Both the position numbers and the translations under genes were made by a program. This document shows positions 191 to 60,760 of a stretch of 64,000 bases of DNA, piece by piece. The stretch is from Bedellia somnulentella (Eukaryota > Arthropoda > Insecta > Lepidoptera > Bedelliidae): positions 186,001 to 250,000 of the forward strand of contig OY755171.1 of the NCBI GenBank assembly GCA_963576735.1, written 5' to 3'. Position 1 is the first letter of the stretch; each line of letters begins with the position of its first letter. Below the pieces are notes generated by a model. That model saw nothing but the letters and a program-made list of their open reading frames with translations. It made no database searches and had not been told where the DNA came from.

Positions 191-196
191 TATGTG
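191..196 (+). CDS. Micro-exon 1 (6 nt, Tyr-Val)
   Basis: Exon TATGTG lies between acceptor tttgttccag and donor gtaagtt. It is the first exon visible; the 5' part of the gene is left of the window. The following intron is 146 nt. Confidence 0.82.
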
Positions 197-3100
197 GTAA
201 GTTATATTTTTGTAGTCGTATATCATCGTATTGACTGAAGCCTAAAAGAAAATATTTTAAAAAGAAATTTTAACAGTAATTTATTATTTTTATTTGCAAA
301 TATATTTATTTTAATGAACTAATGCTTTCACATGTGTTTCAGGGCTATGTAAGTTAAAACCTATGACTAAATTAGTGTGATACTAGCTAATTATATTAGT
401 ATAGTAAACAACGACCGTGATAGCTCGATGGGTAGAACACCGGTTATCGTGCAGAAGAGGAGGGTTGGAATCCCGGGTCGGGCCGGCATCAATTTTTCTC
501 TTCTAAAGACATATGTGTGGTTGATTAATCATGGTTATTAACGGTAAGGGAAAATATTGTTAGGAAGCTTACATGGCTAAGTTGTACTTATTCTTGTTAC
601 AGTGTATTCGTAGAAAACGGCGATAGGCCTGCCCCCTATCACGTGAGTACACTGTCCATGCAAAACGTGGGTACTCTGAACACCAGGTGCAAATGTCATG
701 TGATGTTTAGAAGTGTTAGTACCTCTGCCAACCCCTTCGGGGATGTACGTCGTGAAAGTTTGAGTTTGAAATATTTGCCAAGTCCTGAAATTTATTTTCC
801 TAAGTCAAGTGTATGGTTAATTTATCATGGTTGTTACCGGTGAATGGAAAATTTGTGAGGAATCTCACATGGCGAAATTGTATAGTCAGTCAGGTGATAG
901 TGTATTTCTACAAGACGGCGATGGGCCTGCTCTCGATCACGTGAATGCACTGTCCAAGGAAAACGTTGGTATTCTCGTCGGTGACAATATTGTTACATGA
1001 CCATACCCCAACCACCTCTCAGGGGTATTGCGATGTAAACGTTGAGTTTGAGTTATCATAACTGTTCATTTACGAACTTCCAGTGGCCGGTAAGTTGACA
1101 TTTTAATTCCCTTTTAAAACTTTCTTAAATCAGTTAAGCTACGTGAAAAATAATTAAATAGGAATCAGAAAGGTATTGGAGAAATAAGATAATTACTATG
1201 AAATTCTATAAATATTATATTTTAGTTATATTTTGCTAGAACGGATCATATTTATTTGCAAATTTTTATCGGTATATTTGGTATTGCTGGCAGTTCTATT
1301 AATTTGTTGCTATATTATTATCTAACTATATATACATCTAACGCACATATTTAACCTCATTTACTTTTCCTTCGCATATGGTGGTCCCATAGATTTAGTA
1401 TGCTATACTTTCGTTTATAGATTGGCAAAACAAAGACGACAGACGAGACCAAAAAAAAGCACAATAGTGTGCGTAAATGCGTGTGTGTGCGTTAGTTGGG
1501 CGGATTCCATACTAGCACTATTAAAATTGATAAAAATTCACGTATATGTTGTTTTTTCCAAATTGTAAACTTTTCAGTAATTGTAATATAATGATGATAG
1601 GAGATATTTTTATCATATATTTGCATTGAAAACTTTGGTTTAAGATCTATAATAAAGCGCATAGGCTGTTAATTATAACAATCTTAATTTGGACATGAAT
1701 GGCTTAAAATTTTCTGTTAGCCAAATAATATGTATTTGAATTACATTATGTGCTGTTAAATATTAATAATTTTATCAAAAAATCACCAAAGTTAAGACTT
1801 AAATACCAGGATTAACGTAAATAGGACAATTATTTTCTTTCATGTTTGATGCCAAAACCGTTATAGGCTGTTATCGTGCCTTTGTCGACGTTTATGCTAT
1901 GACGTTTGTCACTTAATGCCAATCTATGGGTTCTATATCTATGGGTGGTCTAATGGAACTTTTATGATAGAAAATTGCGGCGATTTCAAGTATACGAATA
2001 CTTGCTATTACTGTTTAGTTTATCTTTTTTCGAAGTATTAAATAATTGTAAACACAGGCATTCTTATCGTGTTTGTATTATTTAATTTGTAATATACGAA
2101 AAAACACAGTAAATTGTAATATTACTCACATGTTTTTTTTAATATTCTAGTATTATGTAAGTAAAACTTATTACTACAAAGAGAAATTTGACAATTGTTG
2201 ACCAAAAGAGAAATCAATTAACCTCAGTCACTTATCCAATTACTATTAATTTTTAACCATTTCAATGACTATAGCAGCAGTATGATTAATTATTCTGAAA
2301 TTCTCATTAACCATCAACAGTTTTAAATCATTTTTGATTATGAAAAACTTTGAATAAGAAAAAAATATGGCAAGTAGCTAGGAACAGTGAGAATAACATT
2401 ACATACATACACACATATACTCACGGCCATAAATCCCAAAAGGGGTAGCCAGAGCCTCAGAGCCAAAAAATCCTGTAACATTTGGAAGTTGGTAAGGCAC
2501 ATACATACATACATATACTCACGGCTATAAATCCCTAGAAGGGGTAGCCAGAGCTAAGGAACTAGAAGTTCCTCAGCCACTTTTGGAAAGTTGAGTGGGG
2601 AAAATATGGCAAAATAAAGGTTGTTGGTGATGGATCTCCAACCGCGTCGCCCAAAATCCCTTAAATCCCCAATACCGGTAAGGCACGAGATGGTAAAAAT
2701 AAAGTATCGTTGGTTATGGGTCTCAAACCGCAAGCCCAAAACCCACTTAAAAAGCCCCAAACCCTTAGTCGCCTCTTACGACACCCGCGGGTAGAACGGG
2801 TGGTGACATGTGCAGGGCTGCCAGTTATATGACAGATGAAATAACTGTTATCTGATATTTCTAATTCAAATTTAAGTTTAGCCTAGGATTCCTAGTGAGT
2901 CAAAGTATAAACGAATAGGCTGTCAGTATTAGGTATATTACAATCAACTTTTTAATATAATCATATTTGAACTGAAGAACTACTTTCACTTTCAGGCTGA
3001 GGTAAATAAAATTAACACTAACTGTTCAATCATTCATTCATTTTTTATTTCTTTTTATAAAAAAAGTTACGCATGTAGCTTATTTATTACTAATAAATAA

Positions 3101-6100: not shown

Positions 6101-9100
6101 CAAAATTATAATAATTTTATCGTTATAATAAAGATATTAATCTTTGCACAGTACATTGCAGTGTGACTCAATGGGAAAAAACGTGGCTTTGAACACAGAG
6201 TTTTTTTCATTGATATTATTTTCCGGTTAGGTATTAGTGCTACATATTTCAATAATAGTAAATATGAACTAATCATATAATTATAATGTTTTTGTTCATG
6301 AAAACCTCATGTGGGGATTATTTGATTCATTAATTTAACTAATCGTGTTAAAACATGCCTCCTGTAAACCTTTCACTGAACTGCCAAACTAAGTTTATAA
6401 AAATACTAGCAGACCCCACAGACTTCGTACTTTCAAAAGTGTAGACTTTCACGAAGTTAAACTGAAATATTTAAATATAAGTTAAGGGTCTCTGTCATGC
6501 GATGAGAAAAAAGGTGTTTTTCATAGTGTCCTCTCATTTTTTTCACTTTATAAATTTTAAGTTTATATTGGGTATTTATTATATTGGCTTTTAAGGGATT
6601 TTTGGGCGATGCGGTTGAAGACCCATCACCAACAACCTTTATTTTACCATCATTTCCCCACTCAACTTTCCAAAAGTGGCTGAGGAATTTCTACCCCTTT
6701 TAGGGATTTATAGCCGTGAGTGTATGAATGTAAGTTTATAAGTATAGTAGTTTCGGCTGAGCATTGATTCGAAGTCAGTCTGTCAGTTTGACCATTTTTG
6801 AAGAAAATTGATTGATCTCTGAATTTTTCTGGGATAAAAAGTGTCCTATTGTGTTAACTGGGATCATTACCCAGCTTTCTGTAAATTTTGTTTTAAATAC
6901 GTTCTATGAATTAGTCTTCATTTAGCTACAACCACACAAACATCTAAACTTTCACATTTATAATATTATTAGGATAAGGCTTAAACATAAGCTTCTCGCG
7001 CAGGTGACCTCGCTCGCCGGCCAGCGAGCGCAGCGTCTTGTCTTGCGCTTCATTCACGCGTGTAAATTTTGTTACGGAGTAATTTTAAAATATTATCTCC
7101 TAAGATATTAATTTAAATTAAGTGATGTCAAGGACAATTTTGTTCGCAACATATTTATTTGGATAAGGATTAATATTATGTTGATAAACCATTATGGCAA
7201 ATACATACATACGTACATATACTCACGGCTTTAAATCCCGTAACGGGGTAGCCAGAGCTTTGGAATGAAAAATTCCTCAGCCACTTTTGGAAGTTGATTG
7301 GGAAAAGATGGTAATAATAAATAAATGTTTTTGGTGACGGGTCTCCAACCACATCGCCCAAAAATCACTTAAAATGCCCCTATACCCTTAGTCGCCTTTT
7401 ACGATCACCCACGGGTAGAAATGGGGTAGTGTTATTCTAAGCCGACACTACACGGCCCACAATAATTGGCAACAATGCATTAAATTCGATCAAATTTGTT
7501 TACCGTAAAAATGTTTATAGTAAGTCAATCTTAAAAGGTAGAAATATACCGTCGCGGACAGTTTTTTAACCCGTTTAAATAGAAATAATTCTTTAGTACA
7601 TATTTTTTTGGGTAACTTAAACCGTTTACGCAGCGCACACACGGAAGCCTTAAAGTATGAATAATTATCCCCGTTTTCGCAACATTATTCGCTGACAGTT
7701 TGCTCCTGTGGGTCGCAGCATGAAGATATATAGCCTAAAACCTTCCTTAATAAATGGACTATCTATCACAAACATATTTTTTAAATTTGATTGGGCAGTT
7801 CCTGAGATCCTAGCGTTCAAACAAACAAACATACTCTTCAGCTTTATAATATTAATATAGATAATTATATGTTAATAAACTAATTAAAATTTTATAACTT
7901 TCAGACCATCGTAAGTTAATTTTTTTACAATTGATTTGATTATGTTTGATATAAAATATAATACCGTGTAGGATATAGCAAGCTTGAATGAACGTACTTC
8001 GGGCTTATAATAGTAGTTATAAATTTCTTCCCTTGGGTGCCTCCTCTTCAGGAATGTATGCCCTAGCGATTTAAGCATTTATATACAAATAATGTTAGCT
8101 ATCGTTTTACACTTGCAACGTACGTAACATCTTAGAGCTTGTTGGTGAATTTCAACAAGTTTTAGATTGCTTTGATTTTGCCGACCACCACGCAGGAAAC
8201 ACTAAGTCTGCTGTATCAAAATAATTGTAAATAAAAATCTAATTTTCATTTTCATTTTTCAGTGGCATGTAAGTTTATATTAACAGGCACTTATAGTTTC
8301 AATTTATATTAAGGCTTTTTTGTAATTAATGTTTTAATGTCAAATTATACTATACACATCATAATCATATTTAATAGTTTAGCATTTCAAATCTTAATTT
8401 AATTTTATAAGAAAACTGATTTCTTTTAACGTATCAAATTTGAAATAAAACATAATATCTAAATTAATAATATCTTTTGGACACACCGCATTTTTAATAT
8501 TAAATTATTATTTTCAGCTACCGGTAAGCAGAGTCTCAAAACGATCTCATAATGAGAAAAATAAGAGATAGTTTATACTTAAATCAATCAAACTAAAGTA
8601 ATGTACTAGTTTTATTAATTAATTTACTAAAAGATAAGCTAAGGTCACAATGTTAACTTCCAACCAATCAATGTGATGGGGGTGATCTCGATATGAGTGC
8701 TCCTATATTGAAATTGATGATATTGATAATACCCGACTAATCAGCAAACTATAGAATATTTACAGTTACATCAACAACCGATTGTATGCCTGTCGAAACT
8801 TTTCAGCATCCAACTTTCTTCATGACACGAGAATATACGTACATTCAAGAGCATTATTTTATATTTTTTATTTAACTTTCGTTCGATTCAGTTTGGTCAC
8901 GTCCTGGTAGCTTACTATCTATTGCAATATATTTAACCCATCTTTTTATCCATCGACGGCAGTTCAACAGCACAAGCAGATGTTCGCAAAACATTCGCCT
9001 TACTTAAGCGATGGAAATATTAATAAATATGCAAACATTTACAAACGTAAATGGGAATATTCGTTACACATCTAGGATCTATTTACGTATCATCAGACGA

Positions 9101-12100
9101 GCCCTCAAATTTACTAGTTTCACCAATCCCTTGGTGTAACTATATTATTTGCATTTCATATAAATTACGTTATTTTAATAATTTTAACTATCATATCCCC
9201 TTAATTCTTTTATTACTATGAAATACCAACGTTGCGTCACTGTACGAGGAATCACCAAGCTCATATTGAAGCCAATTAAATGCCATTAACTCTGATTAAA
9301 TTGTTTGATTAAGCACACTAAAATTATATTTCATTTTTTCAGAAATGTGTATGTATTCATTTTACTTATGAACTTATGTATAGGTTGGAGGCATTCCCTA
9401 ACTTTACCTATTAACAAATGTTTATTGTAACAAATGTCGTAAAAATACATTAATAACCCAGAGTACTGACGGAAAGAGATGACGTATCGTTACATCATCT
9501 CTTTCTGTGAGTACCACGTCAATGCACCTTGTACTTTTTAAGTGATTGGTTGCGATTCTCATATTTTACAACTATTTAATTTGTCAATCATTACTTTCTC
9601 GGGTACAACTTTACTTAAATATTCTAACATCGCAGTAATACTATGGTCAATTACAAAATCTAAAAAATTACCGTGATAGCCCAGTGGGTAGAACACTCGG
9701 TTATCGTGCAAACGACTAGTGTTCAAATCCTGGGTCGGGCCTACACCAATTTGTCTTTTGTAAAGACATATGTGTGGTTAATTTATCATGGTTGTTAACG
9801 GTGAGGGAAAACATCGTGAGGAAACCCACATGGCTGAGTTGTACTTAGTCATGTGACAGTGTATTCGTACAAAACGGCGATAGGCCTGCCCCCTATCACG
9901 TGAGTACACTGTCCATGCAAAACGTGGGTACTCTGAACACCAGGTGACAAAGTCACATGATGTTCAGGAGTAATAGTACCTCTGCCAACCCCTTCGGGGA
10001 TATTCGGCGTGAACGTTTATGTTATGTTATGTTAAAAAATGACAAAACTAAAACTATGAGATTGTGAAAATTGTGCGCTCATGTGTGAGTATAATTGTGT
10101 AACTAAATATAAAATATGTGTTAAATATATAATTTTTGCACCAAGAGTGTTATTTATCAGTGATATAATTTGCCTTATTTTATTAAACGTGCGTGATTTA
10201 TTATTTTAGCACGAAGTAAGTTATCATTGAATCTTCTTACTTAACTGACCAGTCATTCCGTATGGAGAAGGTTTCAACGAATATTGGTAACTACTGATAG
10301 AGTTCGTGGTACTACCAAGTGCACTACGTCCGCCAGCCAGCTGATAAGACGGGTCCACGCGATAATTGGAACCCCCTTAAGTTGTAGACTATTAATGTAC
10401 CTTATTTCATGCATTGAATATCACTCAGGAGGCCTTGCTTGCCTTGGTGGTGCTATTTCATGTATTTGCCAAGCTAAATATCCTGGTATTATACACATTG
10501 TTTAGCGCTTGTATAAAACTCTTAATTATACTTACTTACTTACTCCGCTGGCTCAGCGATGTGGGTCTTGCCTCAGACACAGGAAGTCGCCACTGGTCTC
10601 TGTCCTGTATTATATACATTGCCTAAACCATATACATACAATAAATAAGGTAAACTTTATATAGAGTTGGTTACCGAAGAAAATAAATTAACGACAAATT
10701 ATGTAAAAGTAGTATTTAAATGGTATTAAAGGTAAAAATTTAACCATCGACTAATTAATGGTATTCTTTTTACCTTTTTTCAGAAAATAAAAGTGAGTTG
10801 AACTTATTGATTGATAATGCTCCTTTGGAAGATACAAGATAAAAGGACAAAAAATTATAGTTTATATAATTTTCATTATCCAAATTAGGGTTATTAGTCG
10901 CATTTTATCATTCTAAATCCGATTTCCCAAAACAAACACTCCTATTATTCAAATATACGAGGGGTGGTCCCAAAGTCCGCGAAATGAAAGCAAGGGAGAG
11001 GGGTAATGTTTACTCGCGTAGTATCATTCTAATTATCAACTCATTACGAGTATAAAAAGACAAATTTCAGCCTCCTAACTTCATTAATCAAAGAGCTATC
11101 GTGCTGGGAACAAGAAAATCCGGAGGTAAGTTGCAAAAATGGAGCAAATTGAACATCTTGCCGTTATCAAGATCCTCATAAATTAAAAAGAACTCCGAAA
11201 ATCATCATTGAAGAAATGGGAGCCGTGTATGGGGACCAATGCCCTTCTTAAACAATGGTTTACAAGTGGCATGGACTTTTCAAACAAGGAAGAGATTCAA
11301 TAGAAGATGACCCTCACCCGGGACGCCTCGGATAACGTCGAGAAAATCGAAAAACTTGTACTGGAAGATGCCCGGTTAAAAAAGAAACAGATATCTGCAT
11401 TAACTGTAGAATCAGAAAACACAATTTTGAGGATACTCCATGACCACCTTGGTATGGCAAAAGTCTCCGAAAGATGAATACCGAGAATGCTTACGCCAAT
11501 TCAAAGAGAGCAACGAATCGATGAGTCGAACCACTTTTTGGAGGTCTGTGGCGAAGCACCAAGCGGTGTTTTGGCCCGAATTGTCACTGGAGATAAAACT
11601 TAGGTGCATCATGATGAATCCGAGTCAAAGCAAGACTCGATGCAGTGGCATAAAAAGGGTACAGCTCCCCCTAAGAAGTTAAAGGTGTCAGTATCAGTGG
11701 GCAAGATGATGGCGACGGTGTTTTGGGACTCTGAAGGAAGTTTGTTGATAGATTACAAAAAGAAACGTGTCAACATAACCGGAGAATATTATGCTTCACT
11801 ACTTGAAAAACTGAATGCAGCCATCAAAAAAAAAAGAAGAGGAAAATGGTCACGTGGGGTTCTTCTTTTGCAAGACATCGCGCTCCTTCACAAGTGTCAC
11901 AAAGCGATGGCTGCCTTACACAGATGTGGGTTTAAGGCACTTATTCATCCAGCCTATAGTCCAGAACTGGCCCCCAGATACTATTATTTTTTCCAAAAAT
12001 GAAAAAAGACCTTCGCGGAAGATAATTTTCGAAAGATGTTCTGCATCATCGTCAAGCAATTTCGGCTCATTTCATCAGTAAAGAAAAAATATATATTTCG

Positions 12101-14146
12101 AAGGTATACGAAAGTAAATTTTTAAGATCCGAAAAGTGTATTGAGCTTAAGGGAGACTGTGCTACGAAGGAAAAATAAAATAAATAAAATATTTAAATTC
12201 TTACCTTTTCATTCCGCGGACTTTTGGACCTCCCCTCGTATTATCATGTCAGTCAATCACGGTTTTGTTTAAATTTAATGTTATACTTTTCAGTTTAAGG
12301 TAAGAATACTAATTATATGCACTCATTACATTTAATTACATATAAGTTGAAACTTTCTATTCATGCCAATGACATAGAATCTCCGTCTCTCCAAGTCCAA
12401 GTAGATTTTATTGATTCAAAGCCAAAGCAGAACCAAGGTGATGGTTTTTTCACGTCATTAAGATTTGTATAAGATGATCAATAACATATTTAATCTTCAG
12501 TTCTTTTTAAACTGCAAATTCAGTAATATAATTTAGTTTAATTTAAATTCTCGTGTTTTCAGAGAGTGGTATGTGTCAATATTAACTTTTTTTATTAGAT
12601 AAAACAGTGATAACTTTGGGAAGTTACACAGCATCAAGAGTAATCAACATCGTCTTGCTCAGTATTATGACCAGAACAGGATCTCGGTGAATGCTAGTAA
12701 ATGCGTCCAAATATCATTCACTAGAAGTCTAAACCCCGTTGTTTATAATTACTCCATCAACAACCAACCTCTCGTACGCGTTGACTCCATCCGTGACCTG
12801 GGTGACATCCTCGACAGTAAACTTACTTTTGAAAAGCACATTACTTTAGCGATCTGATGTGTATAAAAGAGATTTATTAAGCTTACGTTAGGAGTATTCT
12901 CGAATACGCATCCAGTGTCTGGTCCCCAAATTATATAACGTACATTCAACGTATTGAACGTATTCAATCAAAATTTTTAAAACAACTAAACTTTAGGACT
13001 CATTTTTTCGGTTGCTCATATGAGGATTCGTGTCGCCAGCATCAACTCACTAGTCTTAAGGATCGCAGAGTTTTACTGGACATGATGCTATTACACGATA
13101 TTCTCTCTGGAGGGCAATTCTCGCAAGTTCGATATCATTATCACTATCGATACCACTATCGATATCACTATCATAGAAATTATAGCAAGTGTTCAATGTC
13201 GTGTGCAAAATATCACAAAGTGAAATATATTTCTATTGATATATTGAAACTGTATTCTCGCACACGGTAGTAGTTTTTCCTTAGACATTAAAGAATAAAG
13301 ATCGAAATCAATGATCCAAGCGAATGAAATGAATGAAAGGTCAGTTTAACTGTGATCTTAGTTATGAAAAGGTCTTCATATCTGTCAATATTTACGTATG
13401 TTTTGGTTTGTTAAAATTTTCCTTTAACTGGCACTTTGTCGGTAACTAGCAAAGTCTGAATTCCTAACTGGACCATCCGGCAACCGGCTTTAGTTTTTGA
13501 AGTTTTATAATGCCGAAATAATATATTTTTTATAAGTTTATAATACAATTAACGTTGATCCAAGTAGAAATTATTTACAACTTCTAAGACAATTTGATCT
13601 ATGATCCATTTAATATATTTACCTACATTTTAATTTTCTATCTATATTCAAACATATTTTGAAAAAAAAATGGCTACCGTTCGCACGACATCTTCAAATA
13701 TCATCATATCGACTGAACGTGACCACCCGATATCATCCTTTGATATATATCATCATATTGACTGGTTTTTAATAGAAAAATATCTATCGGATGAAGTGAG
13801 ATCGCAAAATACCACAAACGTGCATACACTACCATGCGAGAATTGCCCTCATGGTCGCCTTGATTCTCCAGTTTTGTTATGCCAACTGTCATTCTGTACT
13901 CCACAGCGCCGTACTCAGCACACTTCTGAAAGGCTCTTTTCTATAGCCTCTAATCATAATAGTTATGCAAGGAATTCTACAATGGTTCGCCTTGCCAATC
14001 AATTTAATAACCTCTTTGGTAAAACTGAACCATTTACTTCTTCAAATGCCAAATTCCGTTTCGACGTTATTAAGACGTTAGATAATAAATAGAGGGAATA
14101 AGTGAATCGCACACATATACACACACACACAAACATACACACACAA

Positions 14147-14192
<46 letters not shown>

Positions 14193-44100: not shown

Positions 44101-47100
44101 GATGATGAGGTTCTATAAAAGCAATTAAATAAATAAATTTAAACTTCATTAAATTTTTCCATATTTTAGCTAGAGGTATTGTTTCTAATATTATTTTTTA
44201 TTTAAATTTTTATTTTTATTTATTTATTAATTTATATATTTTTTTTTTTTTTAAAGCTGCGTTTTTCCTTTACTTTAGTTTGCAGATAAATTTTATTAGT
44301 AATACATTCCATTCTCAACTGCCTTTCCTTATAATTTGACCAATTCTGGTACTTTGCACCCATCTTGAGAACCCCGCGACCGTGAGTTTGAGAAGGAAAG
44401 AAGATAATAGAATCAGTGTGAATATCTCATGACGGGCCGCTGCGCTGCCGCGTTACATATCGTAACCGGCAAACTGCTCCGGCCTATGAATTATTAAATG
44501 ATATTAAATTCTCAAACCACGCTCAATAATTTTGATCTTACAAACAAGGAGACTTGTGCGATCTTACAATTCAACTCTCCATTTAAGTTTTTTTTTTTTT
44601 TATTTTTCTTCGGAAAACTTACATAATAGCTAAAACAAAATATATAACTTAATGCCAATAACAAGTTTTCACATATTACTATCTAAATGGATAAATATAT
44701 ACAATAATAAATCACAATAAAGCATTTTGCGCACAGTAAACGTAAAAAGACAATTTGTCTTTTCTAAAGTCATATGTGTGGTTAATTTATCATGGTTGCT
44801 AACGGTGAGGGAAAGCATCGTGAGGAAACCCACATGGCTTAGTTGTACTTAGTCATGTGACAGTGTATTCGTACAAAACGGCGATAGGCCTGCCCCCTAT
44901 CACGTGAGTACACTGTCTAAGCAAAACGTGGGTACCTTCTCTGGAAACTAGATGGCGCTTGCCATGTGAGTTCAGGAGTATTGGTACCTCTGCCAACCCC
45001 TTCGGGGATAAACGGCGTGAACGTTTACGTTTACGTAAACGTAAAACAAATTTAACATCACCGTGGTAAGCAAAAGTAAAAAATGGACAAAGCAGCAAAA
45101 CATAACAAAAACATAATTCTTAAATTCCATTGCATAAAACAAATTAACTTTCAAAGAACTGATTCACCAGAGCCGATCTTATAGAATGAGCACTAGAACT
45201 ATATGTCAACATCTAAGTCAATATTGTTTATGCTATGCGTAGATCTAATAACAAAAGAGTTTTTTCTATAATTAGTGTTAACTTTGGGTTCGACCAGTGT
45301 CCAGTCAGACCAGATATTTGAACAAATAAGAACACGAAGCCCATCGCCCGCCACGGCCGCTGCACCCGAGCGCGAGCGTCCTGTCATGTCAACTACATTA
45401 ATAGATTCGCAACAGTTTTAAGAAATAACGATATTTATTTATAATCTTTTTTTGTTTTATAATTATTTTTTTGAAGTAAATGTGTATAATTTCAAAATTG
45501 TTATTCATAATAAAATATTACCTGTTATTCGGTGTGGAGTATCATCATGTGTTACTTTTAACTCTACCAGCACCGTGTACCCTTTATAATATTTATAAAC
45601 AATTAATCATAGAAAGTTTTTTTAGGGTCCAGGCTTCAGGCATGTAAGTCAAACATAATACTACATGTAATTTCTAAGTAATATTTATTAATAATACAAA
45701 TATTTTAAACTATTCCATTACGAAATAAACAAATAGAAGCTAAAGTACCAAATAATAACAATTAATCAATGAATGCTTTTTTTAGGATGAATGGTACAGA
45801 TATGTAAGTCATACATAATATACTTAACACAAGTATTTTAAATTATTCCGTTACGAAATACACAAATAAAATCTAAAGTAACTAATGATGATCCAAAAAT
45901 GATTTAGCAGACAATGACTTCATCCAATTGCCACAAAGAACCGGTGCCGCGTGATAACTTTTGAATTATTCATTCAATTTGATTGGTGATACATTCTCTT
46001 TCAACCTTCTTTACCTCCTAATTTTAACCAATCCTGACACTCTTCGTTCATCTTGAGAACCCCGCAACCACAATATCAATATGAAAAAAAGACTAAAGAT
46101 ACATACATACATACATATACTCACGGCCATCAATCCTAAAAAGGTTTAGCCAGAGCTTCCGAGCTAGAAACTTCTCAGCCACATTTGGAAGTTGATAGGG
46201 GACAAGATGGTAGAAATAAAATATCGTTGGTGATGAATCTCCAACCGCATCGCCCAAAAACACGGTAGTGACATTCTAAGCCGGCACTACACGGTACAAA
46301 AGAATCAGTATAAAAATTTCACGTCTGACGGCTGCCACGTTTTATACTACAACAGTCAAACCTTCAGCCACTCCCAATAAATGAATGATGAACTGCGCTC
46401 GATCATTGTGATCATATAACAAACATTAAGACGGATGCCTGGACACCGATAGAGAGGAACTCCACGTAGCCCTAAACATTTACTATTATATATACATGTT
46501 CTCATCCCTACGGAAGTCCTCTTTACCTTTCATTCCTTCCGGTATACCGCAAAACTATAGTCTACAAAAATTTATCGAAGTAAAAATATTGACTACGCAA
46601 CATCAAACACATATAATTTTAACAAGAACGGAACCACCTTCACAGCCTATTGCGGAAAATGTTTTTTGATAATATTAAAATATTATTTTAACCACGCAAC
46701 CAAACCCTATGAAAATGTCGTGGGACCACCTCGGAAGCATATCCAACCGAACAGAAACACAATATGAGAAATCCATTGCCTAATAACAGAGTAATCAAGA
46801 AATATGAATACAAAAAAAACATACAATCGAATTGACATACATACATATACTCACGCCATTATTTCCCATTGGGGTAGGCAGAGACTATTGATCGCCACTT
46901 TGTACGATCCTGACAAACCTCTCTAGCTTCGTTTACATCCATCAATCTTTTCATACATGCTCTTTTATTCTTCATACTTCGGGCGCCGGCCTTTTTAAGC
47001 ACACACTCTACTTGGTCGAGGTGTGTCCTCCGTGGTCGTCCTCTACTCACATAACCTTCCACATTGGCTTTATAGATCTCTTTCACCAATTTACTGTCAT

Positions 47101-50100
47101 CCATCCTCTCTATGTGCCCAAACCATCTTAACATTCCTTTTTCTATCTTTTTTACAATATCATCTTTCACGCCACACCTTTCACGAATCACGTCATTTCT
47201 CACACGATCACATAACCTTACATTACATTTTTTTTTGAGGGACCTCATCTCTACTGCATTCACTCTGCTCTCATGCTTCTTCTGCCACTCCCAACATTCA
47301 CTGACCATTCATAATCGTAGGGGCCAGAACAGCATCATGCACTGCCATTCGGGCCTTTTCAGACACCGACTGACTAGACATGAGACTATTCAAAGCTCCA
47401 TTTATCGCATTACCCTTCTTCACTATTCTCTCGATATCTTCATTACACTTTCCATCCGTAGTAAACAAACTCCCCAGATATACAAACTCTTTCACTTGTT
47501 CCACTTTCTTACCATTCATTTCAATCACGCATTCGGTCATATTCTCCTCTCTCTCAAAAACTATGGTTTTGGTTTTCTGCACATTCATCCTCATTCCCTT
47601 TCTTTCAAAAGATGCACATGCAATATTCATCATCTCTTGCAACTCTTCAACCGATGATGCAAGTAATACTTGATCATCAGCATATAAGAGGCATTTGATG
47701 ACGAATCCACCCATTCCCAGTCCAAAATCACTTTCACGCAACTCTATCAGACATGTGGTAGATAGTGATGTGTGGACAATCCATGAACAAATTCAAGAGC
47801 CACGTCCCTGTCGGACACCCCTAAAGATACCGAACCAGTCCGTGATTTCTCCGTTTATTCTTACACATACACCTCCCACAAATACTGTCTTACAACCCTA
47901 TCATACGCCTTCTCTAAATCTATGAAGGAGCAATACGACTTTTCGGTGATGCTCCTTAAAGAAAAAAATTGATCCATACATCCCATTTCCTTTCTAAATC
48001 CTGCTTGCACATCCCAAATTTTATCATCCGTTTCATTCATCACTCTGTCAATCAACACTTTTGCATACAATTTACCGACAATGCTGAGTAAGCTGATTCT
48101 ACGGTAGTTTTTAGCCTCCTGGTGCGACCCCTTTCCTTTATATAGAGGCATTACCGCTTTGCACCAGTCTTGTGGCACTTTGCTACTCGACCAGCATTTT
48201 TGGAAACGGAAGTAACACCAGGAAACCACCACCACTTTACCAGCCCTCAGCATCTCGATATTTATCCTGTCATACCCGCTTTTCCTACTTTCATACTTTT
48301 CATTGCTTTCATTATTTCTTCCATACTAATCTCACTATCATCAAAGACACCCATTACTTCATTCCAATCAACATTACTGCCAATTGGCGAAGAAATAGGT
48401 GCATCCTCTTTTTCAAAGTGTCCCTCGAAATAATTCTTCCATACTCGTCAACAACTTTTGCTCTTAATCTTTCATCCACAATTACAAAATCTACCATACT
48501 TCGCTCGCTTCCTCTCTGTCTAGAATACATGTGGATATCTTTGTGTTTAAACAAGATTCCTCTCCAAACATACCTCAATCACTTTCTCACCATTCTCATT
48601 CACCCTTTAATCACCATACTTTCCTAGGATCCTTTCACAATCGTTGCGTGACACAACAACCCACCCATTGAAATCTCCTAGCATAACAATTCTCTCAGTC
48701 TGATCACACCCATTTACAACATCACCTAACAAATTCCAAAACTCCTCCCTCACGGATAGTGATTTAGACATGTCCGGAGCGTACACGCAAATTATGCACA
48801 CCCGGACAAGCTCTAATTTCATCTTTACCCACAGGAGCCTTGGACTCACACTTCATCATCTTTCATGCAATTAGCCATTCTTTCAGATATCAGAATTCCC
48901 ACTCCTTGGCAAGCTCGGTCACTGACATCGACGCCCGAAAAGATCGCTGTAATTTGGCCAAGTTGAGAAACTTCTTTTCCCTTTGCTTCGTCTCGTTCAC
49001 ACATAGAAAATCTAGTTTTCTTTCATTCATAATCATACATTTTTCCTCTAATTTATTATGCATTCCTCCACATACATTCATCGTAGCAAAACGTCTCTTT
49101 AGTCCACTTTTCGCCCCGTGAGAAACCATGGCGCAATGAGTGGCGAGCTACATTGCCGCCTCCGTGTGTATTTCTAGCTGAACACATTTTGGCCCCACGA
49201 AAAGCAAGGGAAATAAACTGTCCATTTAGCCAGAGGCCCGCTTGACTAGGTAAGGTTATTTAGTACCCAGAGTGCACCAGACTTCGGGACGGCGGCACGC
49301 TAACGACCAGACTCACCCCTGGCCACGCATCCCTCGGCACGGCAGATCTTAGATTGGCTTAAGGGCAAAGATGGTAAAAGCCCTATTCCCTTAGTCGACT
49401 CCTACAAAACACCCACGGGAAAAGATGGGGTAGTGCTATTCTATGCCGACACCACACAGCAGAATCGAATTGAATACCTCCTTTTTTGAAGTCGGTAAAT
49501 ATAAAGTTTTTTAATATGACCAATTTTATTGAAATTCGAAGAATATCTGTAAGACGGCAACCGTATAAAATCATCTAAGAATAACTTTTGTAAAGATTTA
49601 TTAAAGACTTAATTAATTTGACTTCAAAGAAACTACACTTTTTTGTTTTAAACTGGTTTCAAGATTGAGAAAATTTTGAATCGTTATTTATTTTTGTATT
49701 TAGTAATAAGTTATGTAACAAGATTCTTTATTATTCGTAACCATTGACATAATTTCCAAATTTACAGGATACAGTAAGTAAATATTTCTAATTCATAAAA
49801 GTTAGGGATGTCTGTACTTTATGCTGATATTCTATTGAAGTTATAAAATAAATTAATAGTTGATATTTTAACTCAGACTCAAGCAAAGTTGCGGGAAGCC
49901 GACGGATGAGGGCAGCACTGGACCGGTCGTTGTGGAGATCTTTGGGGGATGCCCGTGTCCAGAAGTGAACGTTTATTGGCTGATGATGATGATGATTTTA
50001 TAAAAGACAAATGTTGTAGGTCGCCTCGGGACTTGATCTCACACCTGTTTCTATGATGGACGGGTCTTCTACCCATAGAGCTATCACGGTGGTGATGTGT

Positions 50101-53100
50101 GAATTTTTTGGATACCTTTAAAAATGAGATCTGTTATTTTTCTACAAAAAGTTTTATTTGTTCCATTTCAGTATGACGTAAGTATCTAAACTGTAATTTA
50201 ATTATGTGATGCGGTTCAATGAACTTGTGGTGTTCACTTCAATTGGGGCGTAATTTCACAAGTCAATGTAATGGATTAACCTTGATTTTAGGATGTACCA
50301 TTTGGTACAATTGTTAAATTGCGTATTTCTCAGACTTATGCAGTTCAATCCTTCTACAATATGTAGGAGAGTTTTAAAAAACTGTAGGTTTTGACAGTGG
50401 AAGTCAGTTTTGTTGATTGGGTTCTCATACAAACACTACGGCATCTAAATGTAGTACGCAGTTATTTCGGGGACGCGGCAGACCCTTAGTTGAGGTTGCG
50501 ACGAAGACTACCGTGGAAGCGCCGAGGTATAGGGTAAACTGTTATGCATACATGTTACATACAAAAGTAAAAAGGCTAGTAAAGTAGCTAAAGATTACAA
50601 ATTAGACACTCCGACACTTTTGGAACTTAGATAGTTAAAAGATTGTAAGATTAAGGTTAAGTTTTAAGTTGCCATACTACATTTAGTATAATAACATAAT
50701 AATAATAATAAACATAAACTTTCACGCCGAATATCCCCGAAGGGGTTGGCAGAGGTACTAATACTTCTGAACATCACGTGACTTTGTCACCTGGTGTTCA
50801 GAGTACCCACGTTTTGCATGGACAGTGTACTCACGTGATAGGGGGCAGGCCTATCGCCGTTTTGTACGAATACACTGTCACATGACTAAGTACAACTCAG
50901 CCATGTGGGTTTCCTCACGATGTTTTCCCTCACCGTTAACAACCATGATAAATTAACCACACATATGTCTTTAGAAAAGACAAATTGGTGTAGGCCCGAC
51001 CCAGGATTTGAACACTAGTCGTTTGCACGATAACCGAGTGTTCTACCCACTGGGCTATCACGGTTGCTTTATCAATACATAGTATAAAACAAAGTCGCTT
51101 TCGCTGTATGTCCGTATGTATGCTTAGATCTTTAAAACTACGCAACGGATTTTAATGCGGTTTTTTTTAATAGATAGAATAATTCTTAAGGAAGGTTTGT
51201 ATGTATAATAAATGCATAATATAGTAGAGAAACACTGATACATTTAAAGGTTTCTAATGTGATGTCGTAAATAAGCACGTTTTTTTGCGCTTATATTGCA
51301 AACGCTGGCTGAACCCTACGAGATAGACCAAAATAATGTACTACAGTATTGTTCACCTTAAAAAGTTCAACAAAAAAGTCCGCGATGGTATATGTCTATC
51401 TCTTAGGGATAACCCAGGATAACCATTTTTATTCTTTACTAAAAAATGGTTATTTACGAAGTGATTTTAAACAATACAGCATTAATCCTTATCCAATTAA
51501 GTACCTTAAATAAATTGTGCATTTATTATTATAGATCAATATGCTTTTTACAGCATGTAATTTAAGTGAATATTACCGAAGATATTACAAATTTAAAATG
51601 CAGGGTCGTAGTTGTTTGCGCCGGGCGGCGCGTGCCTATATATGTCGATCGCACGCGTTTATCGGAGCTCTCTAGCGAGGAAAATATCAAGAATTAATTA
51701 AACTAATATAGAGAATAGAATAAGTATCTTTTCTTGAGTGTTGAGTGTTTTTCACATGGCCAATTATATGTCGCGCTGTCAAGAGTAACGTCTAAGCAAA
51801 ACATGTTTGTATTGGCTAATGACAAAAAAGCTGTGAACGTTGTGTATAAGGACATTCTGTCGTAGGTATATTTTGCATTGCACCCGTGCGAAGCCGGGGC
51901 GGGTCGCTAGTTTAGTATATATAACTTCAATATATGAAAACAAAACCATCGTTGTAATCCCATATTTATAAAGTGCGTCCATACGGCCTTGAAGGTTTTC
52001 GTAGTCACAATCTAGTATAGGCATCGGTAAATCAATGATGAGATAAAAGAAGCTTGTAAAATTTTGACAAACGTACCCACGTTTTCTTTGGACAGTGTAT
52101 TCACGTGACAGGGGGCAGGCATGTGGGTTTATCGACGATGTTTTCCCAACATACATAAGCAAACTTACACATATGACGTTAGAACAGACAAATTGGTGTA
52201 GACCCGATTATACTAGTGATAGTACGTTTCACGAATGTTGGGTCAGAACGGATTTACTCGTTCTAGCATGTCTTCAGCAACTCCCGTACAATTAAGGTTT
52301 TGAAGAACATTCAGATCTTGCAGGACTAACCGAGTGGCAACTTGTTTAAAATCCAAGTGCTTATTTAAAATAGTACGAAGTGAGTACGAACTGACTCGTG
52401 AGGCACAGATAGTTCGGCTTCTCTAACGGTTTTTTCTTTGCCAAGTTTGATGCTAACCTTTATAGGGTTTTACGTGTGTGTGTGTGTGAATTGTCTCGCA
52501 CATGTGACGTTTATGCTATGACGTTCGTCTCTTATGACCAATCTATTATATTATAAATCTATGTAAAAATCATAATTTATGTAGTCATTCTCATCAAAAC
52601 ATTTCAGCATAATGTAAGTGATATTTTTCATTCATGTTTTCTAAGTGGCGCTACATTCTATTTCATGGGATTCGTTATAAATATTTTTGGGACTAATAGC
52701 GTGACTATATGTATATAAGTTTGTAAAGAAAATTAAAATCAGCAAATAAAAGAATATTAGGCATAAGGTTAACTTTTTGCTATTGAATAACTCTTTGATC
52801 AAAATTTTCCCGATTTCGGTAAGTTTCATAATGGAAGTACATACTTACAATTACTAACTGCTCTAAATCCCTAAAATATTATAAAATATAGTAAAATAAA
52901 GGTTGTTAGTGCTGGGTCTCCAAACGCGTCGCCTAAAAAACACATAAAAGCCCCAAAGAATAAATGTGATAGAGCTATTCTAAGCCGACACTACACAGCT
53001 GAAACTGCTTTGTACTGGAACTATCTGTACATTTTCTTAACATGTATTTTCATTATCACGTTTTTTTTTAAATAAATTTAATGTTATTTTGCTACAAAAT

Positions 53101-55227
53101 GTTTTATACAATAAATTTCAGGGGCAAGTAAGTAAATGACCCATAATTTAATTTTCAAATTATCATTAACTCAATTTAAGAACTTTTGTAAACAGTTGGA
53201 GTTTGTTGAATCAGCCGATCGACCCTAAATGTTTGTGGTATGTTCGTGTTTTCTCTGCTACCATTTACTATGTTCGTGTTTCTCTGCTACCAACAACTAT
53301 GTTCGTGTTTCTGTGTTATTCCAAGTGATGTTTGTTCTTCAGTGATGGAAGGCTTACCGCTACACTGGCCGGCAGCACATCAATCAAGTTTCCTTTTAGC
53401 TTCAAATCAGTGAGTTGAAAAAACTCTGATCATTAGGCTGGAACTGGTGAGGTGTTCAGTCCTTAGTTCTTCCAAGTGGTTTGCTGGCTATTTTCAATAT
53501 TTTGTGGAGATCTGAATGCATTCAGTCTGGGATCAATAATACGATTCCCTGTCCAAGGAATATCGTGTCCTTTTATTCTTTCCTTTCGTATTTTACTAAT
53601 ATCTTCGACAGCTGTTTGTCGGGTCCAATGCTCTCAAAGCACATCAAAGGTTTTTGTTCCAGTGCGATAACTTTGCTATCGTCCACAATTTCACCGATTC
53701 ACAATATATACTATCAAAATATGCTGCTTCTATTTGTATCACAATACTCAAAATTTATACAATTCAATTACAATTTCAATACAACGTCCCGCCATTCCAA
53801 AATCAAAAGTGCAAGTCGAAAAGCTATTTTTATCTCAACTCAACTGTCAATCGATCTGTCACTGTCAATCGCAGACCAAATAAAATATGCCAAAGCCGCG
53901 AGTACATATCTGGCGCGAACAGTTTGATTCATACAAATTTTCTCTTAATATAATTAATAATTATTTGAATTTATATTTATTTATTATATTATGTTTATAT
54001 ATTTACTTATTATGTTATATTTATTATTAAAGTATGTATTTTAAGTACTTTCATTCATAATTATCTTATATATTATTACTTATGTATTTTTAACCTTGAA
54101 AACTAAGTATCTTATTTAGGTATATTTTATTATCATAAAATATTGTTAACATTATTTCCTAAAATCTCTATGCATATTTTCTAATCTTGTAGTGTTTGCT
54201 TGGTCTGGTGGGAATGACAATATAATTCATTTAACTGACATGACAATATAATTTATTTAACTTACTTAATTTCATCTGTATAAATTATCCATATTTCTAA
54301 CTGATGTATAATTGTTTTGTTTTCAATAGTTATTTTAATTTGCGTTTTTCTGTATCGTCTGTATAACAATTGGTAGAAACTTTATAGGTCAAGAACTTCT
54401 CTGTATTTTTATCTTATTTGAAACTAGTGGATCGTCCCAGCTTCGCACGGGTAGCGTTGTTTTTTAAATATCTGAGGTTTCTTTCTTTAGTCACTGCTCA
54501 AGCATTGTGAAATTCAGCGCAATGTTTTCAATTTATTAAAGCACTCCCTAAACAGTGTAGTTTGGTGATTTTGAATGCGCTCTAATGAACGGTTCAGTGT
54601 TTCCGTTTAATAGCAAATTTTGGAATAAAACGCTATGAAGTATTTATAACAATCTAAAAAATAAATCATTACGTGATGTAGGATGCAACTACTGGCGCCA
54701 TCTAGTATGTTATATGTAAATTAGTAAAGATTTGGTTTTGGTTACCGGCGCGATGGCTTATTTTATGTATAATTTCGGTGTTTCTCTACCGATTTCTATG
54801 ATTCTTTTTTTATTGAATAATGTTACCTTTTTTAAATTAGGGATGAGTGAGAGGTTTACAAACGTAAGAGTAAACAAATATAATCAGAATGTTCCAAACT
54901 GCTAAGCTATCAGGAATTACACGTGTTATTGTGAGTCAACCGTAAAAGATAGACATAAACTGTTGAGGATTTTTTTTTAGATAATTTTATGAAGAATATT
55001 TCTGTAATACATGATTTCTATGTAAAATTAACCATTAAGTCTGCACACACGGCGGAAGCTTAAAAAATGGAGTAACATCTCCCGTTTTCCCAAAATTTCC
55101 CAAAATTCCCCTTTACTACTCTGCTGGAAAGTATACAAAAACCTGCCTAGGAGTATAAAGAATAATTTTGCCAAATTTCGTAAAAATCCGTCGAGTAGTT
55201 TTTGTTTCCATAAGGAACATACAAACC

Positions 55228-55273
<46 letters not shown>

Positions 55274-58200
55274 AATTTTACTGAATGCATTTTTGGCATC
55301 AGTATCGATCACTAATCACCCCCTAATAGTTATTTTGAAAATATATTTCATGTACAGAATTGATCTCTCTACAGATTTATTATAAGTATAGATATTGTGT
55401 ACCGTTTGTTTCTCAAATAAATAAATATTTTTTTCATGCATGATAATGCAAGCACATTCACGGCTTCGGCGTAATTTTACAAGACAGTATGCGGATGTTG
55501 TAGTATTGCCTAGATTTTGGGTTGTGTTGATATTGCGCACCGTTTGATACTCGTAGTTGAACAGGGGATATTGGTATTTTCGCCCGGTGCCCCATGCCAG
55601 TCCCATTGCATCGATTATATTTGTAAATAGTAGAAAGCGAAAAACAAAGACCACCGTTGCATAGCCGGCGTATACGGTGAGGTGTGTACTTTAGTTGCGC
55701 TGGATAGAATATCGACCTTAACTTACACAAATAACCCGTGAACTATTTAAAACTCTCTGAAATTTGCAGCAAAAATCGTCCTTGCGTGATGCCTTATTTT
55801 AAAAAGTTAGAAGAGGGACACAAGTTTTCTCTCGAAAAAATCCAGCTCAATATTTTTCAATACTATATGGAACCACCTAAATCATTATTCATGAGATTCA
55901 CCCCAAGCTTTATGCAATGTATTCGTTTACATAATAACGTCGCGGTTACAGCTATTGTTGAATAATGATTTTCAAATGTCATATTTCAACTGTCGAATGA
56001 TCTATTCGGCAAGTTTTCGATGCTGTAGAACTGATTCAAATTATCAACTTTAAATCTTTTTGTCTAACTCTTTATTGTTATTTCAGCTTGTTGTAAGTAT
56101 GATTTTGAATATGAAAAGCTGCACTTTAATGTCTAACAGTGACAAAATACTCCGACAATAAAATAAGCATGCGTGGTCAATGTTGTAAAACAGGTCAAAT
56201 CATCATAATATTTCTAAATAAATAAAAAATAAATCTTTGAAAATAAGTGGTCAAAGTTAGCTTTTAATGTAAGTCTTAGGTTGACATTTTATGGAGATCT
56301 TGTTGTATTATGTAATACTACCATTAGCTAAACAGCGATGTTTCAATGTAGACATATTGTTAGTTTTTATCGGGGTTATTATCACAGAATAAAAAATAAG
56401 GGACGCCACAAATTGAGATTAATTTTGATATACTTTAATATTTTAGGGTGAAGTAAGTAATTACTACCATAAGTTATTTATTTATTTAAACTATTTACGT
56501 GGTTAATTTATCATGGTTGTTAACAGTGAGGGCAAACATCATGAGGAAACCCACAAGTCTAAGTTGTAATTAGTCGTGTGACAGTGCATTCGTACAAAAC
56601 GGCGATAGGCCTGCCCCCTATCACATGAGTACACTGTCCAAGCAAAACGTGGGTACTCTGAACACCAAGTGACAATGTCACGTGATGCTTACAAGTATTA
56701 GTACTACCGATGATACTTTATTTGTACCATCTTGCCCCCTATCAGCTTCCAAATGAGGCTCAGGAGTTTCTAGCTCTGACGTATGGATACCCCTTCTTGG
56801 GATTGTGAGTATGCGTATGTATGTATGTATTATGTCAAAAGGTTTTAGAAGTAGGGCTAATGGGCCAATACAATAGGTCACTTTTGACATTTGTCAACCT
56901 GTTGGTGGTTTTTTTGCCCTCTTACTCAGTCTACATACTTCCGTCGCCTTTCGTCCACTTTCACAAAATCTATCATACTTCTCTCGCTTCCTCTCTGCCT
57001 AGTACGGGTTGTGGGACGGTGCGCGTCGGCAACGTCACGCGTATGTTGGTCATTATGGACATATAGGTTGCAGTTGTGGAACTTTTTCATACTGGCAAGG
57101 GTAAAAACCGCATAAATATTTTAATAAATGTACTCTGTTACTAAAATTTTCAGTGGCTTGTAAGTTATTTATTATTTACGTAACACAGAATAAAAATAAT
57201 ATTAGGTGTCTTTTCTACTGTGACAGGGGTGCTACTGGGTGAAAATTTTACTTCACTGTTATTGCTAAAAACGTCCAAAAATGGCAGGATATTTTTCTTT
57301 AGCGACAGACAAAAAAGGAGAAAAGGATTGAGTGACAAAAACTATCTACCACAAGGTAAGATAGGTAAGAACACATTATAAATGGATATAAGTGATAACT
57401 GGGTGGTGCAAGCTTGCCAATGAAATATGAGCAAACGATTAAGATTACTATTTCTGTGGCAGACAATGAAATGAAAATACGAACATATTAGTTAGCCCGA
57501 AACAAAGTTAACTTGTATTAGAGGATACAAACTCAAAGATATATTTAATATTATAAAATACACATCCAAGACTAAGAAACAATCATAAGTGCTCATCACA
57601 TAAATGTTGTCTTCAGCGGGGATCAAACCCGCAACTTGCGGACCTCGACCTCGGACGTCGTCGTCCGTAAATACCTAGTAGACGATAATGTGAATACTAG
57701 CTCACGCAGCTTCAACTTGAACGTTTGTCTATGAAACAACAAAGCACTTTCTTCATGTTTCATCGGATGGGTTCGCCGAGCACATCGTTTTACTTCTATT
57801 TCGTATGCGTACTTATCTTGCAGCAGTACAAGGTATTGGCAACCGAGTGCTGAAGCGGTAAAGCCAGTTTTTATAAGGCGCTAACGCAAAGCGCAAACTG
57901 GGCTTCTTTTAACCTTTTATTAAATTTTTCGTTGATTATTAAGATTTGTCATTTTCAAAAATTTCAGACTAAGGTAATTGAACATCATATAATGGTTGTG
58001 TGAACATACGTAATAATAATAACTCTTCATTCAGATTAAAATTATACAAAATTTTCAAGAGTCAGCTGGACCCAAACTAGGCTCATCGTCCGTATTTCAG
58101 GATACAGCTTTTTGTTCCTATCAATATATTAGTTGATTTGTAGGAAAAAAGACTTATTAGAAATATTAACAAAGTAATATTTAATGAATTGCATAGACTT

Positions 58201-59308: not shown

Positions 59309-59362
59309 GTAAGTATTTTGTTTAAGGAATACATACATACATACATACATATTCTCACGCCG

Positions 59363-60457
59363 TTAGTTCCCATTGGGGTAGGCAGAGACTATCGATCGCC
59401 ACTTTGTACGATCCTGGCAAACCTCTCTGGCTTCGTTTACATCCATCAATCTTTTCATACATGCTCTTTTATTCTTCATACTGCGGACACCTGCCTTTTT
59501 GAGCACATTTTCTATTTGATCCAAATGTGTCCTCCGAGGTCGTCCTCTACTAACATTACCTTCCACATTGGCTCTATATATCTCTTTCACCAATTTACTG
59601 TCATCCATCCTCTCTATGTGCCCAAACCATCTCAACATTCCTTTTTCTATCTTTCTTACAATATCATCTTTTACACCACACCTTTCACGAATCACATCAT
59701 TCCTCACACGATCACATAACCTTACATTACACACTTTTCTGAGGGATCTCATTTCTACTGCATTCACTCTACTTTCATGCTTCTTCTGCCACACCCAACA
59801 TTCACTGCCATACATAAGCGTAGGAACGAGGACAGCATCATGCACAGCCATTCGGGCCTTTTCAGACACCGACTGACTAGACATTAGACTATCCAGTGCT
59901 CCATTTACCGCATTACCCTTTTTCACTCTTCTCTCGATATCTTCATCACACTTTCCATCCCTAGTAAACAAACTCCCCAAATATACAAACTCTTTCACTT
60001 GTTCCACTTTCTTACCATTAATCTCAATCACGCATTCGGTCATATTCACCTCTCTCTCAAAAACCATAGTTTTTGTTTTATCCACATTCACCCTCATTCC
60101 CTTTTTTTCAAAAGACGCACATGCAATATTCATCATCTCTTGCAGCTCTTCCACCGATGATGCAAGTAGCACTTGATCGTCGGCATATAAGAGGCATTTA
60201 ATGATGAATCCACCCATTCTCAATCCATAATCACTTTCACGCAACTCTGTTAAACAGTCATCCATGAACAAATTGAAGAGCCACGGGGAAGCTACACAAC
60301 CCTGTCGGACACCCCGAGAGATCCCGAACCAGTCAGTATTTTCCCCGTTTACTCTCACACATGCACTGGAATCCTCATAGAGTGATACCAGTGCACGTAT
60401 AAGTTGGCTCCCCAAGCCGAACTTGGATAACACCTCCCATAAACACTTTCTTACCAT
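59363..60457 (-). CDS. RTE LINE reverse transcriptase core and C-terminus (364 codons)
   Basis: Begins at the D2 junction (VRKCLWEVLSKFGLGSQLIR) and runs without a stop to AYPNGN at the LINE's normal end. Contains GVRQGCVASPWLFNLFMDD and the catalytic YADD in CLLYADDQVLLASS, then the conserved C-terminal blocks SECWVWQKKHESRV, GMLRWFGHIERMDD and SRGRPRRTHLDQ. With the endonuclease it would carry out target-primed reverse transcription; this copy is split by an insertion. Confidence 0.9.
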   Translation of the reverse strand: MVRKCLWEVLSKFGLGSQLIRALVSLYEDSSACVRVNGENTDWFGISRGVRQGCVASPWLFNLFMDDCLTELRESDYGLRMGGFIIKCLLYADDQVLLASSVEELQEMMNIACASFEKKGMRVNVDKTKTMVFEREVNMTECVIEINGKKVEQVKEFVYLGSLFTRDGKCDEDIERRVKKGNAVNGALDSLMSSQSVSEKARMAVHDAVLVPTLMYGSECWVWQKKHESRVNAVEMRSLRKVCNVRLCDRVRNDVIRERCGVKDDIVRKIEKGMLRWFGHIERMDDSKLVKEIYRANVEGNVSRGRPRRTHLDQIENVLKKAGVRSMKNKRACMKRLMDVNEAREVCQDRTKWRSIVSAYPNGN

Positions 60458-60760
60458 AAATAAAAGATGTTATTAAAGGAAAGAAAAATTTCGACTCTGG
60501 CGGGGTTCGAACCCGCGACCTTCGGGTATACGCCCCCGTCGCTCTGCCAACTGAGCTACAGTGTCAGTTGGCATCCAGCGCGAAATTTCTCTATCCTTTG
60601 TTTCTTTTTTACACGTTCAAGTTGGCAGAGCGACGGGGGCGTATACCCGAAGGTCGCGGGTTCGAACCCCGCCAGTGTCGAAATTTTTCTTTCCTTTAAT
60701 AACATCTTTTATTTATGAGTAATAATCCCCACATGAGGAATTCATGTCAAAAAACATTAA
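60456..60760 (+). mobile_element. Fold-back tRNA-headed element (family D2) in RTE copy 7
   Basis: Flanked by ACTTTCTTACC (60445-60455 and 60761-60771). Left arm antisense with a full tRNA-like part (60493-60565), apex at about 60620/60621, right arm in sense starting inside the tRNA-like D arm (to 60679), then the family tail ending cattaa. Arms are unequal, so the inversion point is off centre. Confidence 0.88.

Follow-up and report, generated by a model that had tools for sequence, protein, structure and literature searches.

A probable micro-exon gene of about fifty mostly two-codon exons, likely lepidopteran, in a 64-kb stretch of DNA

The + strand of the 64-kb stretch of DNA analysed here (hereafter the window, meaning the whole stretch) carries an array of micro-exons, confirming the observation made in a preliminary description of this DNA. 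Judged from the sequence, the array quite likely belongs to the interior of a single protein-coding micro-exon gene of a probable lepidopteran, with about 50 exons, mostly of two codons, in phase 0 and with GT-AG introns. The preliminary description had proposed a single coding micro-exon gene; the coding array stands, with spacing, frame, branch-point-like motifs and a donor trade-off in its favour, while that it is one gene, and spliced, is what we infer.

The array is most directly seen in the excess of closely spaced splice signals on one strand. Of the pattern AG-N6-GTAAGT, the whole 64-kb window holds 27 copies on the + strand and none on the - strand (26 had been counted at first, with none on the - strand, which holds); 300 first-order shuffles averaged 1.0 and never exceeded 5. 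After masking of repeats, defined as DNA recurring within the window, YAG-N6-GTRAGT is found 29 times on the + strand and 0 times on the - strand, while 1000 second-order shuffles of the masked DNA gave a mean of 0.49 and a maximum of 3, so that the check originally put forward, enrichment against shuffled sequence and the opposite strand, shows the excess to be real. Summed over k = 3-18 by threes, 42 YAG-Nk-GTRAGT units are observed in the masked DNA, where shuffles averaged 2.75 and reached at most 10, with the remaining spacings on the masked + strand giving 0-3 units each except for k = 9 with 7. The donor GTAAGT by itself is present 45 times on the + and 11 times on the - strand of unmasked DNA. 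With the threshold set at 13 and units of up to 30 nt allowed, a scored scan of the masked DNA returned on the + strand 51 units whose length is divisible by three and 4 whose length is not; at the same threshold the - strand gave one of each kind, and shuffled DNA gave 1.6 multiples of three per shuffle. The acceptor matrix used for scoring was trained on the listed exons themselves and the YAG-Nk-GTRAGT pattern counts are therefore the cleaner control.

The exon list was compiled from a position-weight matrix (PWM) scan and a second scan of masked DNA, in which the donor score includes the last exon bases. The first list held 52 units, from which 15057 was removed and to which 27796 and 31145 were added to give the 53 below; each entry is a micro-exon from the PWM scan unless marked otherwise.

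191..196, +, TATGTG (YV)
343..348, +, GGCTAT (GY)
1084..1089, +, TGGCCG (WP)
2151..2156, +, TATTAT (YY)
2996..3001, +, GCTGAG (AE), donor GTAAAT, AG end
7905..7910, +, ACCATC (TI)
8263..8268, +, TGGCAT (WH)
8518..8523, +, CTACCG (LP)
9343..9348, +, AAATGT (KC), donor GTATGT
10210..10215, +, CACGAA (HE)
10784..10792, +, AAAATAAAA (KIK)
12294..12299, +, TTTAAG (FK), donor GTAAGA, AG end
12563..12568, +, AGAGTG (RV), donor GTATGT
14753..14761, +, ATTGACCGG (IDR)
16782..16787, +, AAATTC (KF)
17579..17584, +, TATGAC (YD)
18099..18104, +, TATGAC (YD)
18540..18542, +, GAA (E), 3 nt
20199..20204, +, GATACT (DT)
20351..20356, +, GAATTT (EF)
20436..20441, +, TATGAG (YE), donor GTGAGT, AG end
21897..21902, +, TTTGTT (FV)
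22225..22230, +, GGTCAT (GH)
23070..23075, +, TGGGAT (WD), donor GTATGT
23758..23769, +, AACGATAGAGAT (NDRD)
26574..26582, +, AGCGGCCAC (SGH)
27188..27196, +, GAAGTACCT (EVP)
27414..27419, +, CGAATA (RI)
27796..27801, +, TGGACG (WT), donor GTATGT, weaker (score 12.8), picked by eye
28209..28214, +, TGGATA (WI)
30486..30491, +, AGCGCT (SA)
30862..30867, +, GATGAT (DD)
31145..31150, +, TTTCCG (FP), donor GTAATA, weaker (score 11.3), picked by eye
35234..35239, +, TTTTAT (FY), donor GTGAGT
35622..35627, +, AATAAA (NK)
39718..39726, +, GATATAGAA (DIE), donor GTGAGT
40511..40516, +, GAAGTG (EV), donor GTAAGA
42620..42631, +, ATACGTGAACCT (IREP)
43292..43297, +, CATCGC (HR)
45626..45643, +, GGTCCAGGCTTCAGGCAT (GPGFRH), 18 nt, first tandem copy
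45786..45803, +, GATGAATGGTACAGATAT (DEWYRY), 18 nt, second tandem copy
49768..49773, +, GATACA (DT)
50172..50177, +, TATGAC (YD)
51554..51556, +, CAT (H), 3 nt, donor GTAATT
52374..52379, +, TACGAA (YE), donor GTGAGT, doubtful, fails acceptor score
52608..52613, +, CATAAT (HN)
53122..53127, +, GGGCAA (GQ)
56087..56092, +, CTTGTT (LV)
56447..56452, +, GGTGAA (GE)
57154..57159, +, TGGCTT (WL)
57968..57973, +, ACTAAG (TK), donor GTAATT, AG end
58874..58879, +, TTCAAG (FK), donor GTAATT, AG end
59300..59308, +, AAACGTCGT (KRR), last one found

The listed exons total 366 nt (2 of 3 nt, 41 of 6, 6 of 9, 2 of 12 and 2 of 18), a coding share of about 0.6% over 59 kb. The span first given for the array, 191-59308, is correct, while the original number of units, 52, is replaced by 53 listed exons and a true number of about 50 to 53; one unit of the first list above (15057-15068, 12 nt) was dropped as an artefact that sits in a LINE copy. 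The claim that every exon is a multiple of three holds for the listed set and is in part a product of selection, a unit of 5 nt at 5749 having been left unlisted. A score of at least 13 and a length of up to 30 nt left 56 hits on the + strand. Listed exons account for 50 of these; three of the 6 unlisted hits use a splice site of a listed exon, and the three independent ones lie at 2877 (18 nt), 5749 (5 nt) and 42921 (21 nt, with in-frame stops). Lowering the score to 11 gave 62 hits with 52 listed, 5 of the other 10 again using a site of a listed exon. The exon at 52374-52379, with an acceptor score of -3.5, is doubtful yet was kept among the 53. One of the 27 AG-N6-GTAAGT units, AAATAA at 5857-5862, was rejected, having virtually no pyrimidine tract and containing a stop. 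Also rejected were the 12-nt GGATTTATAGCC or GGAAATATAGCC before GTGAGT at 6704, 36847 and 42552, which lie in masked dispersed repeats; this repeat ends in GG(A/T)..TATAGCC before GTGAGT, imitates a 12-nt micro-exon and is a trap in pattern scans. A search for longer exons of 21-300 nt with frame 0 open found 6 on the + and 5 on the - strand at the chosen cut, which is no excess, and none was adopted.

When the 53 exons are joined, frame 0 gives 122 codons (about 121 had been counted at first) with 0 stops, compared with stops at 5/121 codons in frame 1 and 22/121 in frame 2. The probability of 122 stop-free codons at the trinucleotide frequencies of the window is 4.5e-4. The list was partly hand-picked, 27796-27801 and 31145-31150 having been taken by eye from weaker candidates with the open frame in view. 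In a set defined by pattern only, the 26 YAG-N6-GTAAGT hexamers (the rejected AAATAA included), frame 0 has 1 stop in 52 codons, that of AAATAA, while the in-exon codon is a stop in 0/26 hexamers in frame 1 and 6/26 in frame 2, so that it takes the codons crossing the junctions to rule out frame 1. Adenine at the two second codon positions of the 41 hexamers is found in 18/41 and 21/41, compared with 27% and 33% in 81 decoys. Measured against the trinucleotide content of the window, D, E, W and Y are over-represented and S and L under-represented, with only D, E and S reaching p < 0.05 against decoy hexamers and W, Y and L not significant. The joined segment of 122 residues is acidic and aromatic-rich (pI 5.7, GRAVY -1.23), with 35 Y/W/F/H, 25 D/E and 19 K/R and no methionine. 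A repeated module seen by eye, DT..YE..(F/L)VG(H/E)W, was rejected, the self-alignment being no better than shuffles (score 37 against a shuffle mean of 33.8, reached by 60/200 exon-order and 46/200 residue shuffles). The joined peptide matched 0 Pfam-A families at E ≤10, and in the Protein Data Bank its best match had an E of 1.1 over 21 residues, with no solved structure found.

The donor is exactly GTAAGT in 35/53 exons, the same number as in the preliminary description, and GTRAGT in 40/53. Among 51 exons, those ending in AG have non-GTAAGT donors in 5/5 cases compared with 11/46 of the others (Fisher 0.0019), and weaker donors after AG-ending exons are what U1 pairing would predict. In the first list of 52 units T is found at -6 in 49/52 and at -5 in 50/52. 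In 28/53 exons a YTAAY motif is present 12-50 nt upstream, compared with 35/139 control acceptors from both strands (Fisher 5e-4), and in 14 of the 31 YTAAY motifs found within 60 nt upstream the putative branch A is at 19-22 nt. Unlike SRRM4-type neural microexons, the array has no enrichment of the upstream UGC motif, with TGC within 30 nt upstream in 8/53 exons against 22% of random positions.

The 52 introns range from 79 to 4903 nt with a median of 735, and 11 of them exceed 2 kb. This range, with several large gaps, would fit two or more adjacent micro-exon genes on the same strand, as would the finding that no significant internal repeat links the halves of the joined peptide. Such a division is nevertheless unlikely, with a single phase kept throughout and no start or stop exon recognised in between, and in 5/11 of the introns above 2 kb masked repeats make up half the length or more, which accounts for those gaps. 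On the preferred reading of one gene, the gene likely continues past both ends of the window because there is no methionine and the frame is open at both ends; within the window neither a start nor a stop exon was seen, nor a signal peptide or a long exon.

The ratchet points of recursive splicing regenerate a donor directly after the acceptor, with AG next to GT and no exon. The predicted array resembles these in having a donor right behind each acceptor along a long transcript, and differs from them in that six bases stay per step, the exon not being of zero length. As the exons are too small for recognition across the exon, the introns would likely be defined one by one and taken out stepwise; each next acceptor would receive the lengthening upstream exon, and the strong GTAAGT donor six bases on would start a new round, much as in recursive splicing, with two codons retained per step. 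Intron definition with Prp40 for microexons is described for worm and mouse in the passages cited (PMC11463390). Any exon could be skipped without a shift of frame, as the exons comprise whole codons and every intron is in phase 0; this may serve to tolerate errors or to generate variants, and the data are compatible with either.

It may instead be argued that the splice signals are real and form a decoy or recursive-splicing array in a long intron of another gene, the six bases being noncoding and mostly skipped or triggering decay. The span and spacing are like those of long introns with ratchet points, the introns are rich in repeats and start, stop and long exons are absent from the window, yet this reading is decidedly unlikely: classical ratchet points are exonless and YAG directly followed by GTRAGT occurs 0 times on the unmasked + strand (AG directly followed by GTAAGT, with any preceding base, occurs 3 times on the whole + strand), while 122 codons are open in frame 0 with A-rich second codon positions and the unit lengths are multiples of three.

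One exon is present in two tandem copies, each including flanking sequence:

45598-45756 and 45757-45889 (45598..45889), +, the two copies of the duplicated unit

The two exon copies differ at 8/18 sites compared with 18/114 in the flanks (Fisher 0.009, with a 27-column gap excluded), which hints, from the single pair 45626/45786, at an exon changing faster than its intron. In this pair 5/6 codons differ in residue and 7/8 differences are amino-acid-changing, a ratio that alone shows nothing because 14.8/18 sites are nonsynonymous. The second copy retains the AG, the length and the GTAAGT despite its changed exon. An origin of the exons by wholesale duplication was rejected; several flank pairs lie above the random 99% but the top ones are inserted repeats or overlapping flanks, and only the 45598/45757 tandem pair stands as a duplication of its own. 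Pairs in the flank comparison also include 23758/39718 and 27796/42620. The hexamer TATGAC serves as an exon three times (17579, 18099 and 50172) and GATACT/GATACA twice (20199 and 49768), and these recurring-hexamer exon pairs are absent from the top 15 of the flank comparison.

The divergence of this exon pair is also what might be seen in a decayed micro-exon gene that is no longer expressed, a reading to which the abundance of transposable elements in the introns (39% masked) and the homologue searches could be added. A search with an older list, including the false LINE exon, against proteins of about 67-213 aa gave no candidate, and one with the final list padded to 435 aa against proteins of about 239-761 aa gave 46 candidates with none at E ≤10, proteins of about 214-238 aa and above 761 aa lying outside both; the absence of an annotated relative carries some weight as the collection searched includes NCBI and UniRef insect proteins. 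A pseudogene is very improbable all the same, with 35/53 donors exactly GTAAGT, frame 0 free of stops and the tandem copy keeping its AG, length and GTAAGT though its exon is altered.

All 53 exons lie outside dispersed repeats, though masking covers 39% of the span. A single LINE family is represented by related copies within the repeat stretches 14871-16741, 31754-35150, 35757-39522, 46832-49464 and 59329-63056, in introns and beyond the last exon, with LINE DNA occupying most of the remaining window past 59300..59308. Reverse transcriptase and endonuclease domains of the family are present in the two frames examined, with the open reading frame at 61081-62796 (-) matching reverse transcriptases and endonucleases of Parnassius, Phthorimaea, Cydia and other moths and butterflies (best named match 50% identical, among 120 of 242 matches). 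A lepidopteran origin of the window is therefore likely, although mobile elements bear on it only indirectly. A tRNA-like repeat at 60461-60745 lies within the last LINE copy and breaks its frame. At 3084-3741 and 25518-26209 lie two tandem arrays whose units of 311-315 bp are tRNA-like in part, and there ARAGORN called tRNAs whose anticodon is not assignable. A 26-bp minisatellite at 17119-17447 (12.7 copies, 97% alike) is open in all three + frames, and a 580-aa stop-to-stop open frame at 28503-30245 (-), inside one intron of the array, has no Pfam match, is single-copy in the window and is perhaps a transposon-derived gene. Some early hits were repeat-borne (15057, 6704, 36847 and 42552), but an enrichment of AG-N6-GTAAGT by chance or by repeats is improbable in the extreme, the excess persisting after masking, against the minus strand and against 1000 second-order shuffles.

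Proteins of the schistosome micro-exon genes (MEGs) carry an N-terminal signal peptide and are secreted, and the micro-exons are alternatively spliced, while Drosophila micro-exons are known as single cassettes in otherwise normal genes; in the present array, by comparison, the whole visible gene is micro-exons. The layout of the array is known from MEGs and from the bicycle and megacycle genes of aphids, the closest known systems, from which it differs in exon size and phase. According to the passages cited, the coding region of MEGs is mostly very small symmetric exons separated by introns of 0.1-5 kb (PMC4350168, PMC10526429), with 10-20 exons of which the majority are 15 bp (PMC10526429), and fast evolution, with exons changing more quickly than introns, has been reported (PMC4350168). 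In keeping with this, the coding sequence here is mostly tiny symmetric exons (3-18 nt, threes by selection) with introns of 79-4903 nt, and one exon pair has diverged faster than its flanks. Purely by analogy, the product may be a fast-evolving secreted protein. In contrast to MEGs there are about 50 exons at least, 41/53 of them 6 nt and none 15 nt, in another phylum and with no sequence match.

Aphid megacycle has 118 exons over about 100 kb encoding 2092 aa, and bicycle and megacycle genes are described as having many single-phase micro-exons, evolving fast and being hard to detect by sequence, with internal exons of bicycle genes beginning at codon position 2 and no megacycle orthologue found outside aphids, as stated in the passages cited (PMC9168663). 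The array is likewise a predicted insect gene with many micro-exons in a single phase, the insect origin being judged from the LINE relatives. It differs in that its open frame begins at codon position 1, in the mostly 6-nt exons compared with a megacycle average of about 50 nt (our arithmetic, 2092 aa over 118 exons, from the cited figures) and in the lack of a significant internal repeat in the joined peptide; the paired CYC motif of bicycle genes is absent, there being 1 cysteine in 122 codons. Drosophila micro-exons of 3-30 nt, enriched in multiples of three, with 6-nt and 3-nt cases, are described (PMC8042270, PMC7392893). The array is thus set apart from MEGs by exon size and number and from bicycle genes by phase and motif. 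In the open-licence literature searched, neither a micro-exon gene from Lepidoptera nor a series of exons mostly 6 nt long came up; the earlier claim that a run of about 40 two-codon exons is undescribed stands in that narrower form, though megacycle has more micro-exons.

Tentatively, the array could be a moth gene that adds two codons at each recursive-style step, over at least 50 consecutive steps that are all skippable in frame, a payload ratchet by which one locus would yield a very large range of combinatorial proteins, with exons selected for change. If the gene is transcribed as predicted, it would push the known lower limit of gene fragmentation to two codons per exon over tens of consecutive exons. 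It would then lend itself to studying how the spliceosome copes when exons are too short to be defined as such, and would bear on the repeated origin of micro-exon genes in flukes, aphids and moths. Genes of this class are likely to be missed by common annotation, and a simple AG-N(3k)-GTRAGT scan can detect them in sequence alone.
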